Source of the DNA: an uncultured Erysipelotrichaceae bacterium | Lineage (GTDB): Bacteria; Bacillota_I; Bacilli_A; Erysipelotrichales; Erysipelotrichaceae | Length of the DNA: 51,360 bases | Reading direction: 5' to 3' | NCBI GenBank assembly: GCA_902786245.1 | Contig: CADABS010000009.1 | Location: 1 to 51,360 of the forward strand | Part shown: in pieces, positions 14,344-37,401 of the stretch | How the letters are laid out: each line of letters starts with the position of its first letter | Numbering within the stretch: position 1 is the first letter of the stretch | Notes under the pieces: generated by a model | Seen by the model: only the letters and a program-made list of their open reading frames with translations | Databases searched by the model: none | Told to the model about the DNA's origin: nothing | Program-made: the position numbers and the translations under genes

Positions 14344-14601
14344 TCAGCCTGGCAGGCCTTCTTCCTGACGCTGCATGTTTTCAACGACAACGTCATAGAT
14401 ATCGCCGATGGACTGTCCGTATTCCAGAACGAGCCAGGGCTCATTGGTATGAAAATGAATCTTGATGAGCGTATCATCGCCGACGACCAGCAGGCAGTCG
14501 CCCTTGAAGTGTTCAAGAATATAATCATGGATCACATCTTCATCCAGATTTTCACCGTCAATCAGCAGCTGTGTGTCGAATTTGAATTCAAGCTGTTCCA
14601 T
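14344..14601 (-). CDS. Stand-alone DAK/FakA C-terminal-like domain (85 aa)
   Basis: The 85-residue protein matches the part of YloV/FakA-type kinases that follows the DhaL domain. DCLLVVGDDTLIKIHFHTNEP with YGQSIGDIYDV and ENMQRQEE resembles the 'GDSLVVV...VKVHVHTNDPG...VLEYGQ' segment. It has neither the kinase domain nor the rest of the DegV-like partner. Such orphans have been called 'kinase to dihydroxyacetone kinase'; no function is established. AGGAGA lies seven bases before the ATG at 14601. It follows the glycosidase gene by about 70 bases and shares its terminator. Confidence 0.7.
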   Translation of the reverse strand: MEQLEFKFDTQLLIDGENLDEDVIHDYILEHFKGDCLLVVGDDTLIKIHFHTNEPWLVLEYGQSIGDIYDVVVENMQRQEEGLPG

Positions 14602-14670
14602 ATGCAAATCTCCTTTTCTTCCCCGTGATTATACCACTTTAAAGCCGATCATTTATCGGAATGCACCCGA

Positions 14671-23357: not shown

Positions 23358-23985
23358 CTTCTTTCACTATCCTTTCCAGATCTGACAGGACGCTCATGAT
23401 TTCCTGTCTCTTCATCTTGAAACTTGCTTTGTTTACAATGGCTCTTGCGCTGATTTCGCATACCGTATCATAGACGACCAGGCCGTTTTCCTTTAGGGTC
23501 GTACCGGTTTCCATGATATCGACGATCCCGTCGCATAATCCGAGCACCGGTCCGAGTTCGACCGATCCTTCGATCCGGATCATCTCCACATCCATTCCCC
23601 GGCTGAGAAAATACTGTTTCGCGACTTCCGGGTATTTGGAACCGATCCGCACATGCCCCATCATCTGCAGCGGGTTGGCATCCGCCATGCCCGCAACGAT
23701 GAACCGGCAGCGGCCGATGTTCAGATCGAGCAGTTCATAATAATCCGATCCGCCCTCCATCAGGGTATCCTTGCCGACAATGCCGATATCTGCCACACCA
23801 TGTTCCACATAGGTGATGCAGTCAGCAGCTTTGACAAGAAAATAGCGGATATCCTTAACGGTGTCTTCAAAGACAAGTGCTCTGCCTTTATTATGCAGCT
23901 TTTCAATGCCGTAGCCGCATCTTTCGAGCATATCGACGGTCTGTTTTTCCAGACGTCCTTTGGTCAAAGCGATTGAAAGGCTCAT
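23326..23985 (-). CDS. hisG: ATP phosphoribosyltransferase, short form
   Basis: This 219-residue enzyme makes the first committed product, PR-ATP. It begins MSLSIALTKGRLEKQ, with the PRPP-binding loop ETGTTLKENGL near 160. It lacks the C-terminal ACT-like regulatory domain of long HisG (about 300). Short HisG works only with HisZ, whose gene lies directly upstream with a four-base overlap. The short-form/HisZ pair is the usual Firmicutes arrangement. Confidence 0.93.
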   Translation of the reverse strand: MSLSIALTKGRLEKQTVDMLERCGYGIEKLHNKGRALVFEDTVKDIRYFLVKAADCITYVEHGVADIGIVGKDTLMEGGSDYYELLDLNIGRCRFIVAGMADANPLQMMGHVRIGSKYPEVAKQYFLSRGMDVEMIRIEGSVELGPVLGLCDGIVDIMETGTTLKENGLVVYDTVCEISARAIVNKASFKMKRQEIMSVLSDLERIVKEDAERNQSEGS

Positions 23986-25067
23986 TCCGTTTCCTCCATG
24001 ACCAGTTCGACCGGTCCGTATTTGCGCAGTTCTCTTGCTTTTCTGATTGCGTCTGCTTCCTGGGAAGGACGGTAGTACAGTTTTCTGATTTCTTGTGTTT
24101 CGGTTTCGACATGGCCGATCAGCAGATCGCTCTTGACGCCGAAGCCGACGGCCGGCAGGTCGCGGCCGAGTTTGCGCAGCAACGTATCGTATCTGCCGCC
24201 GCTGAGCACACCGGATCCGATTCCTTCCGCAAATCCTTCGAAGATAATGCCGGTGTAGTAATCACGGTGCGGCACCTTGCCCAGATCAAAGGAAATATTT
24301 CTGCCGTAGCCCAGATCTTCCAGCTGTTCTTTCAGCCGGCACAGATGGCGGATGATTTCCCGCAGGGCTTCATCGAAGCAGACTTCTTCCGCATCTTCCA
24401 GAGCATTTTCTCCGCCCAGCAGAGGAAGCCGGTTGAAGAATTCCTTCTCCTCGGGACGCAGCTGCGCCGCTTCGATCATCTGCTTTGTATCGGTCATTGC
24501 CTTGCGGTCGATGAGATCGGAAAGCACTGCGCTCTGTTCTTCATCCAGACCGGCCAGACGGCAGGCCTTCCAGAAGAACCGGCTGTTGCCGATTTCCAGC
24601 ACGCAGCGGTCCCGGAACAGTTCCCGCATGACATCCAGGGCGCAGCTGAGCACTTCCAGGTCTGCTTTTTCATCGAGCCCGATCAGTTCGATGCCGCAGT
24701 CTGTCACTTCGTTCCGCTTGCCGGCAAAGCTCTGTCTGACCTTATAGACATTGGAACAGTAGGAAAACCGCAGAGGGAGATTTCCGCCGGTGTATTTTGA
24801 AGCGCATACACGGGCGATCGGCAGGGTCATGTCGGTGCGCAGCGTCAGGATCTGACCGCTGTCATCGACGAATTTGTACAGTGTCTCTTCTTCCAGCGAA
24901 GCAAATGACGAGCGGTATGTGGCATAGAATTCCAGCAGCGGCGTTTCGATCGGACGGTATCCCCACAATGTGAAGATATCCATGATCTTCCGGTTCACTG
25001 CCTGTTTCTTTTCGCATTCATCCGGCAGGATATCGCGCATTCCCGACGGTATCTGTATCTGTTTCAT
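23982..25067 (-). CDS. hisZ: ATP phosphoribosyltransferase regulatory subunit
   Basis: This 361-residue paralogue of histidyl-tRNA synthetase activates short HisG and gives histidine feedback inhibition. Class II synthetase motif traces are IPSGMRDILPDEC, LRTDMTLPIARV near 100, and the HisRS-like GRYDTLL near 290. It lacks the anticodon-binding domain and ends MEETE. I set the start at 25067, after GGAGG, because the in-frame start at 25100 lies inside the T-box terminator. It is the first gene of the ten-gene his operon. Confidence 0.92.
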   Translation of the reverse strand: MKQIQIPSGMRDILPDECEKKQAVNRKIMDIFTLWGYRPIETPLLEFYATYRSSFASLEEETLYKFVDDSGQILTLRTDMTLPIARVCASKYTGGNLPLRFSYCSNVYKVRQSFAGKRNEVTDCGIELIGLDEKADLEVLSCALDVMRELFRDRCVLEIGNSRFFWKACRLAGLDEEQSAVLSDLIDRKAMTDTKQMIEAAQLRPEEKEFFNRLPLLGGENALEDAEEVCFDEALREIIRHLCRLKEQLEDLGYGRNISFDLGKVPHRDYYTGIIFEGFAEGIGSGVLSGGRYDTLLRKLGRDLPAVGFGVKSDLLIGHVETETQEIRKLYYRPSQEADAIRKARELRKYGPVELVMEETE

Positions 25068-25087
25068 CGATCTGGTCCTCCGAAAAT

Positions 25088-25342
25088 AAATAAAGGACAT
25101 CCCCCTAGGGACGTCCTGAACGTGGTTCCACCCTGTTTCACTGCATTCTCACGAATGGCAGCCTCATGAAGTACTGACATACTCCTGTACTGTAACGGGT
25201 ACTTCCGCCGATGCCTACTGCGGTTTCGGCAGCGGAGCTCCGGGATGTGTTTTCAGCAGCAGCGTTCCTCTTCTTTTCACCGGCCAGAAGCTCTCTTTGC
25301 TCGCGCAGCGCCGCCTACTTTTTCCCTTCATCGCTTTTGATT
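25088..25342 (-). promoter_or_regulatory. T-box leader of the his operon (specifier CAC, histidine)
   Basis: Read on the minus strand, the leader has GCGATGAAGGGAAAAAGTA at the base of stem I, then the AGAGAG turn and GGTGAAAAG. The specifier stretch is GAAAACACATCC, with CAC at 25249..25247. The T-box AGGGTGGAACCACG is at 25134..25121. It ends in a terminator (AGGACGTCCC and GGGGGATGTCCT, 25093..25116) followed by a T-rich run. Uncharged tRNA-His would pair with CAC and with the T-box bulge, prevent the terminator and turn on hisZGDCBHAFIE. This occupies most of the 346-base gap between genes. Confidence 0.9.
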
Positions 25343-36118: not shown

Positions 36119-36147
36119 TTGACACACGTATTGCAACGTGCTTAAAT
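36119..36147 (+). promoter_or_regulatory. Promoter of metK
   Basis: TTGACA (36119..36124) and TTAAAT (36142..36147) are 17 bases apart. Transcription would start near 36154, giving a leader of about 155 bases. Confidence 0.7.
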
Positions 36148-36153
36148 ATGTAC

Positions 36154-36300
36154 GTCTTTTATCAGGAACGGGGCAAGAGAGTCAGCTCGTTGACCCCCTA
36201 CCAACCTGCCGGAAGGCAAGGTGGTAAAGCTGACATCGATAAAGAAAGAGCGAATATTCAACTGACTCTTTCTGAAATCAGAAAAGACTGAAAGGAAGGG
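36154..36300 (+). promoter_or_regulatory. Candidate SAM riboswitch (reduced SAM-I/IV-like) controlling metK
   Basis: P1 is TTTTATC (36157..36163) with GATAAAG (36238..36244). P2 is GGGG (36170..36173) with CCCC (36194..36197) through a kink-turn-like CAAGAG...CTCGTTGA. P3 is TACCAACCTGCC and GGCAAGGTGGTA around a GGAA loop, matching the CAACC...GGTG core of SAM-I. The P2 loop GTCAG (36181..36185) can pair with CTGAC (36230..36234) as a pseudoknot. There is no P4. The same P2 bases AGAGTCAG (36178..36185) also pair perfectly with CTGACTCT (36262..36269), a plausible switch strand. The ribosome site is AAGGAAGGG. Confidence 0.6.
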
Positions 36301-36309
36301 TTTTTATTT

Positions 36310-37401
36310 ATGTCTGTAACTTATTTTACTTCTGAGTCCGTTACCAGCGGACATCCCGACAAAGTCTGCGACCTGATCGCGGATTCCATTCTTGACGAAG
36401 CAATGCGCCAGGATCCTGACTGCCATATGGCAGTGGAAGCGTCCATCAAAGATGATCTGATTTTCATCTTCGGAGAAGCCGGCACCTCTGCCGTACTCGA
36501 TTATGAAGGCATTGCCCTGCGGGTGATGAAGGAAATCGGCTATGAAGAAGAATACCATGTCATCACCAAGGTCAACAAGCAGTCGGCCGAAATCAACAAT
36601 GCCGTCGCACATGATGTCATCAGTGCCGGCGACCAGGGTATCATGTTCGGCTTCGCATCCGATGAAACAGAAAACCTGATGCCGTTTGCCATTGACTGTG
36701 CCCATCGCCTTGCCCGCCGTCTCGAAGAAGTCAGACGTTCCGACGCAAGACTGCGGCCGGATGGAAAGACACAGGTGACTGCCGAATATGATGACGGTGT
36801 ATTCAAAAGAATTGAAACGATCGTTGTTTCAACCCAGCATACGGAAGATATCACCCAGGAAGAACTGCGCAGCCTGATCATTGAAAAGGTCATCCGCCCG
36901 GTCGTCGATCCGAAGTACCTGGATGAAAACACAAAGTATCTGATCAATCCGTCCGGTTCATTCATTGTCGGCGGAAGCTGGGGCGACTCCGGTACGACAG
37001 GACGCAAGATCGTTGTGGATACCTATGGCGGCTATGCACCGATCGGCGGCGGATGCTTCTCTTCAAAGGATCCCACCAAGGTCGACCGTTCCGCAGCGTA
37101 TTATGCAAGATATGTATGCCGCAATGTCGTTGCGAACGGACTTGCACATAAATGCCAGCTGCAGCTGTCCTATGCGATCGGCGAACCGCTGCCGACATCG
37201 GTATTTATCCAGTCCTTCGGAACATCTGAATATTCGGATAAGGATCTGGCAAAGATCGTCATGAAGAACTTTGACTTCAGTGTTGCAAACATTATCAAAG
37301 AACTGGATCTGCGCCGGCCGATCTATACCCGGACAACCAATTACGGCCATTTCGGCAAGAAGGATATGCCCTGGGAACAGTTCAAGAAGATCGAACTCTG
37401 A
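36310..37401 (+). CDS. metK: S-adenosylmethionine synthetase, short divergent form
   Basis: This 363-residue enzyme makes SAM from methionine and ATP. Conserved pieces are TSGHPDKVCD, GDQGIMFGFASDET near 101, TGRKIVVDTYGG near 222, and KDPTKVDRSAAYYARY near 246. The catalytic His, Asp, Lys and Arg residues are all present. Bacterial MetK is usually about 380-400 residues. Several loops differ from the common form: GGSWGDSGTTG in place of GGPxGDAGLTG, and YAPIGGG in place of xxxHGGG. The ATG follows AAGGAAGGG. It is monocistronic, and the leader upstream probably senses its product. Confidence 0.88.
   Translation: MSVTYFTSESVTSGHPDKVCDLIADSILDEAMRQDPDCHMAVEASIKDDLIFIFGEAGTSAVLDYEGIALRVMKEIGYEEEYHVITKVNKQSAEINNAVAHDVISAGDQGIMFGFASDETENLMPFAIDCAHRLARRLEEVRRSDARLRPDGKTQVTAEYDDGVFKRIETIVVSTQHTEDITQEELRSLIIEKVIRPVVDPKYLDENTKYLINPSGSFIVGGSWGDSGTTGRKIVVDTYGGYAPIGGGCFSSKDPTKVDRSAAYYARYVCRNVVANGLAHKCQLQLSYAIGEPLPTSVFIQSFGTSEYSDKDLAKIVMKNFDFSVANIIKELDLRRPIYTRTTNYGHFGKKDMPWEQFKKIEL

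Follow-up and report, generated by a model that had tools for sequence, protein, structure and literature searches.

The SAM-synthetase gene metK of a gut bacterium is preceded, in the 51,360-nucleotide stretch of DNA analysed here (the window), by a SAM-I-like aptamer without the P4 helix, and we consider it likely that this aptamer acts as an OFF switch for metK by way of a hairpin that sequesters the Shine-Dalgarno (SD) sequence. The regulated gene (36310..37401, with the ATG at 36310; all elements of the leader described below are, like the gene, on the + strand) encodes a methionine adenosyltransferase, with a TIGR01034 score of 475.5 bits (cut-off 309.4). The aptamer (36156..36245) matched the Rfam covariance model of SAM-I, RF00162, with 45.9 bits (E 2e-7), a score far beyond chance, which bears out an earlier note on this DNA that had read the metK leader as a reduced SAM riboswitch. 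The sequence strings that the note had singled out (GTCAG at 36181-36185, CTGAC at 36230-36234, AGAGTCAG at 36178-36185, CTGACTCT at 36262-36269, CTTTC and GAAAGG) were all found in place. Rfam matches to mir-1295, MIR841, ceN53 and BsrC in the leader region were all far below the cut-off.

Upstream of the aptamer a probable sigma-A promoter (36119..36147) can be read from the sequence: TTGACA at 36119-36124, a spacer of 17 nt and TTAAAT at 36142-36147. A pattern scan did not call this promoter, A being missing at position 2 of the second hexamer. In most of the 30 leaders listed, TTGAC and a -10-like box stood at a constant distance from the sequence GTCTTTT. Transcription would then start near 36153-36155, which would place the 5′ strand of P1 at the 5′ end of the mRNA.

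For the comparative analysis 70 genomes of the genus, which belongs to Erysipelotrichaceae and stands near Solobacterium/Lactimicrobium, were used, and metK was located in 67 of them. Where a related metK gene had a named record, this came from Erysipelotrichaceae, Solobacterium or Lactimicrobium. The genus genomes and the named relatives yielded 58 distinct leaders whose 5′ end was intact. Alignment A1 comprised 60 P4-less aptamers from many genera, and a covariance model, R1, was built from 60 P4-less aptamers. R1 gave the window aptamer 92.6 bits, and found 61 metK-type places with at least 75.9 bits in 60 of the 70 genus genomes, many of these sequences belonging to its own training set. 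RF00162 had matches in 42 of the 70 genomes, above the curated cut-off of 44.4 bits in 27, some of which were other SAM elements; by our own count of the match list about 18 of the 61 metK-type places passed. The suspicion that a search with the SAM-I model might miss the leader was thus unfounded for the window (45.9 versus 44.4 bits) but correct for about two thirds of its relatives. In a sample of the phylum R1 matched in 116 of 392 genomes, distributed over many families, and nearly all of the matches inspected were P4-less; judged by these sequences, P4-less aptamers extend beyond the genus.

Other arrangements were also observed. Two genus genomes (G018 and G026) have metK without a P4-less leader; here the leader (L113, L115) was lost or replaced, and another conserved leader is common to both. 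In G059 and G005 the gene encodes a divergent MetK (38% identity) and is preceded by a P4-less aptamer of the other subtype, not the metK type, with a plain terminator (L005, L006). One leader (L132) contains two SAM-I matches in tandem (G262:C50:14418-14503 and 14571-14666; 56.8 and 74.7 bits), and P4 was present in the one aptamer inspected.

The aptamer has, as the earlier note had described, a P1, a P2 and a P3; the internal loop of P2 is asymmetric, and P3 carries the CAACC...GGTG core. The strands of P1 (36157..36163 and 36238..36244) showed two-sided changes in four of seven pairs in A1. P2 (36168..36199) consists of P2a (36170-36173/36194-36197), the asymmetric internal loop and P2b (36177-36179/36186-36188), and the pair A168-U199 sits outside P2a; two-sided changes occurred at all five P2a pairs in some sequences of A1. 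The asymmetric loop is retained in the leaders, and its sequence varies. At the equivalents of SAM-I positions 19-20/35-36 the 58 leaders have GA/GA (15), AA/GG (25), TA/GA (9), AA/GA (6, the type of the window) or TA/AA or TA/TC (3). Both G-A pairs can form in 15 of the 58, and A20-G35 is possible in most of the others, including the window. In the window CAA and UUG could pair, and loss of the k-turn in favour of a continuous helix was considered. This helix is not conserved (relatives have GCCG and GUCG there), and we therefore kept the reading of the internal loop as a probable k-turn-like element of variable form.

The loop of P2 (GUCAG, 36181..36185) can pair with CUGAC in J3/4 (36230..36234) to form the SAM-type pseudoknot PK-1. 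In the 60 aptamers 95.7% of the cells of PK-1 were paired and two-sided changes were present at four of the five pairs; the middle pair was C-G in 34, U-A in 14 and A-U in 11 sequences. The covariation that the earlier note had named as a check on this pairing is thus present. The whole P4-less structure was 90.7% paired in A1, as against 31 to 48% when shifted by one to three columns.

P3 (36200..36225) carries the CAACC...GGUG internal loop, the element that contacts SAM in SAM-I, and its core positions were invariant in the 60 sequences. The nucleotides of SAM-I that contact the ligand from P1, J1/2 and P3 are listed in PMC3764141; the equivalents of A6, U7, G11, A12, C44, A45, C47, U57 and G58, and also that of G56, were invariant in the 60 aptamers. 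The equivalent of the G43-C59 pair was C-G in 49 and G-C in 11 of them, the flipped C-G being the metK type. At the site where SAM-I has P4, the window has a stretch of 13 nt (36225..36237) without a hairpin, occupied by the pseudoknot strand. The distance from GGTGG of P3 to the 3′ strand of P1 was exactly 13 nt in all 58 leaders, and since the pseudoknot strand fills this space there is no P4 in any of them, as the note had observed for the window. Canonical, P4-bearing aptamers of the same family are about 12 nt longer at this place and have a CAGA..UCUG hairpin.

A second RF00162 match in this genome (49.8 bits) lies on a different contig (L001 1501-1585 = G000:C90:2587-2671). This aptamer is P4-less too, has the canonical G43-C59 pair and is followed by an 81-aa reading frame without a Pfam match. 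Aptamers of the same subtype precede small proteins with a common motif like RMNEEEFxxLLxSL in other genomes (L011, L013, L017 and L025); the next frame at L025 may be a polyphosphate kinase 2. The genome also has a second metK paralogue (L116, G000:C52), 62% identical, with no SAM element in front. In the window itself a T-box leader (25104-25340, - strand; RF00230, 109.2 bits) is located directly upstream of hisZ (23982-25100), the gene of the ATP phosphoribosyltransferase regulatory subunit.

Nearly every leader has the same order of elements 3′ of P1: GAAAGAG, a variable linker, CTCTTTC, a second variable linker, AAAAGAC, the SD, a U-rich tract and the ATG. Three helices can be drawn between these elements and the aptamer. 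In the anti-P1 helix GUCUUUU (36154..36160) pairs with AAAAGAC (36282..36288), directly upstream of the SD, and excludes P1 at 36157-36160. The first five pairs were possible in 57 of 57 leaders, and when the pairing energies of own and swapped strands were compared, z was -4.8 (-3.4 with 31 representatives). Complementarity was retained with differing sequences in L045 (GTTTATCACG with CGTGATAGAC), L087 (GTCTTTAATC with GGTTAAGAC, one bulge), L101 (GTCTTCT with AGAAGAC), L195 (CTTAAATT with GATTTAAG), L163 (a 14-bp match with one bulge) and L147. Several other genera have no anti-P1 complement before the SD, thus the helix is not universal. An extension of it into J1/2 (UCAAGA/UCUUGA) was seen in some leaders and is missing from most, and was discarded.

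The second helix, the ON hairpin, pairs GAAAGAG (36244..36250) with CUCUUUC (36266..36272) in nearly all leaders. It gave no independent covariation (z -1.2 to -1.8) because its sequence is almost invariant. CUCUUUC is shared with the third helix, the OFF hairpin, in which GACUCUUUCU (36264..36273; GACTCTTTCT in the DNA) forms ten contiguous pairs with AGGAAGGGUU (36293..36302), with a duplex energy of -10.7 kcal/mol. The SD (AGGAAGGG, 36293-36300) lies in the 3′ arm, and between it and the start codon there is, as read from the sequence, the U-rich tract UUUUUAUUU (36301..36309). The OFF helix had the strongest covariation of the platform: z for own versus swapped strands was -9.2 in the 58 leaders and still -4.4 in 11 representatives with less than 70% identity, where none of 5000 permutations was as good. 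In these energy tests relatedness was corrected only in part, by identity thinning alone. Relatives have AAGCUC/GAGCUU, AUAACUC/GAGUUAU, AUGCUC/GAGCAU or AAUUCUC/GAGAAUU in this place, often followed at once by U4-U7. The suggestion that CTTTC might meet the SD region and so control the ribosome site is therefore supported by covariation.

We then compared predicted folds with and without P1, using an energy model that contains neither the pseudoknot nor the ligand. The free minimum-energy fold of the window contained the ON hairpin and the anti-P1 helix. When P1 was enforced the fold had the OFF helix, and the predicted unpaired probability of the SD fell from 0.56 to 0.03. Over the 58 leaders the predicted exposure of the SD averaged 0.45 without P1 forced and 0.07 with it; it fell by more than 0.1 in 42 of 58 and rose in none. 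With shuffled linkers the mean change was slightly opposite (-0.05 to -0.10), and falls of more than 0.3 were seen in 0-1 of 58 leaders, as against 37 of 58 for the real sequences. About 16 of the 58 leaders were predicted to be mostly closed even without P1 being forced. Because the overlap between P1 and the ON hairpin amounts to just one or two bases in the window, the switch depends in part on energies, and the coupling would run mainly through the anti-P1 helix, which shares 36157-36160 with P1, and through the competition of the ON and OFF helices for CUCUUUC.

These features suggest the following mechanism. At low SAM the P1 5′ strand, probably the first bases of the mRNA, would pair with AAAAGAC before the SD, and GAAAGAG would hold CUCUUUC away from the SD; the SD would be open and metK would be made. 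At high SAM, the ligand and the pseudoknot between the P2 loop and J3/4 would keep P1 closed, AAAAGAC and CUCUUUC would be freed, GACUCUUUCU would pair across the entire SD, and the ribosome would be blocked. In relatives whose OFF stem adjoins a U-run, transcription might be terminated as well. We infer that SAM binds, and likewise which way control acts, how the events follow one another and how much translation and termination each contribute; for the direction, with P1 closed by SAM and the SD hidden, we rely on the OFF logic of SAM-I elsewhere.

The alternative that retains most weight, although we think it unlikely, is that the switch acts on transcription only, the anti-SD/SD hairpin and the U-run being an intrinsic terminator and translation having no direct regulation. 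Many relatives have a stem of 9-14 bp that ends right at 4-7 U, with the U-rich tract placed directly 3′ of this stem, the arrangement of an intrinsic terminator, and in other genera there are plain terminators, such as those of L092 and L096, which have the same GAAAGAG/CTCTTTC overlap. In the window, however, the stem is A/U-rich with G-U pairs, has a 19-nt loop and is followed by a U-tract interrupted by A; a terminator scan, whose loop range covered only 3-8, made no call there, and in all leaders the SD is inside the 3′ arm of the hairpin. On account of the weak stem, the broken U-tract and the silent scan, control of translation appears favoured in the window. For many of the relatives, where the hairpin adjoins a U-run, the best reading would be a dual terminator and sequestor. 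Dual expression platforms of terminator and ribosome binding site (RBS) are a known category (Barrick and Breaker 2007, PMC2258182). In the metK leaders, too, the RBS is part of the 3′ half of a hairpin that resembles a terminator; the difference is a further helix, adjacent to the SD, in which the 5′ strand of P1 is captured.

In L163 and L195 the anti-P1 strand is located 3′ of the terminator, beside the SD. The anti-P1 strand of L163, which lies upstream of metK in G173, contains CCUUG, which could pair with the SD CAAGG; a second switch, acting on the SD beside a plain terminator, is possible in this leader.

With respect to the known classes, SAM-I has PK-1 and P4; SAM-IV has PK-1, PK-2 and P5 and lacks P4; SAM-I/IV has P4 and PK-2 and lacks PK-1 (PMC6890682). 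The P4 hairpin in the core separates SAM-I from SAM-IV (PMC7270179). The metK leader shares with SAM-I (RF00162) P1, the asymmetric-loop P2, the SAM-contact core of P3, PK-1 between P2 loop and J3/4 and, as predicted here, control of a SAM gene through P1. Unlike SAM-I it has 13 nt without a hairpin in place of P4, a 5-bp PK-1, in the metK type a G43-C59 pair flipped to C-G, often no sheared pair 19/36, and downstream partners for both strands of P1. With SAM-IV (RF00634) it has the absence of P4, PK-1 and the ligand core in common, but it lacks any sign of PK-2 or P5, and the RF00634 model found no match at the leader. The ligand core is also that of SAM-I/IV (RF01725), whose model gave a weak match of 35.1 bits over 36154-36274. 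Of the models that the note had proposed to run, only SAM-I thus matched above its cut-off.

That RF01725 match could mean that the RNA belongs with SAM-I/IV or SAM-IV and that P5 is the hairpin that follows P1. This is very improbable: the score is below the cut-off of 41.1, SAM-IV is not detected, and SAM-I/IV, with P4 and without PK-1 (PMC6890682), is the reverse of the metK leader RNA. Nor was there an excess of complementarity between the P3 loop and downstream sequence that would indicate PK-2 (3.95 nt, compared with 3.89 nt in shuffled sequences). We place the RNA nearest to SAM-I and call it a P4-less variant, because P4, a feature by which SAM-I is told from SAM-IV, is absent.

The earlier note had seen the switch elsewhere, in a pairing of the P2-loop segment AGAGTCAG with CTGACTCT that would break the pseudoknot. 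The two form a perfect 8-bp match in the window, and the idea of mutually exclusive pairings was right in outline; its second helix was not, the real alternatives being the P1 5′ strand with AAAAGAC and GAAAGAG with CTCTTTC. The match was present in 1 of the 58 leaders, the window, and the others share 3 to 5 nt, whereas PK-1 and CTCTTTC are found in all or nearly all. CTCT/CTCTTTC is conserved for other reasons, which makes the match unremarkable: CTGA before the conserved CTCT is expected about 0.2 times in 58 leaders (58/256) and was observed once. We regard it as a probable chance feature, which could give an added local bias in this species only; that it is the switch we judge scarcely credible. 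Least probable of all is a variant of the SAM-I fold for another ligand, for although spermidine variants of SAM-I are known, one of them before metK (PMC10853860), these occur with polyamine genes and are altered in the ligand positions of J1/2 and the P3 internal loop, and the equivalents of G11, A12, C44, A45, C47, G56, U57 and G58 are intact in the 60 aptamers.

In summary, comparison of the sequences indicates that the metK leader is a real, functional-looking SAM OFF switch. The P4-less layout appears to be new as a structure; SAM-I-type control and dual platforms were already known. We found no description of a P4-less SAM-I in the literature searched, which is weak evidence of novelty as the coverage was partial and short terms such as P4 were unsearchable. 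The chances seem to us evenly balanced that the SAM clan has here a fourth layout, with PK-1 and with neither P4 nor PK-2, which extends through Erysipelotrichaceae and into further families of its class. Before metK, each strand of P1 would then have its own capturing strand downstream, that of the 5′ strand lying beside the SD, and one helix would command both transcription and translation. If this is true, neither P4 nor PK-2, the substitute for P4 in SAM-IV, is needed for the SAM-I core to work, a point that bears on the role of the peripheral helices. The 58 leaders, in which a single logic is kept with varied sequences, are material for studying P1 capture and dual control of transcription and translation. 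Because the standard cut-off omits about two thirds of the leaders of one genus, counts of metK genes under SAM control are too low for this group.
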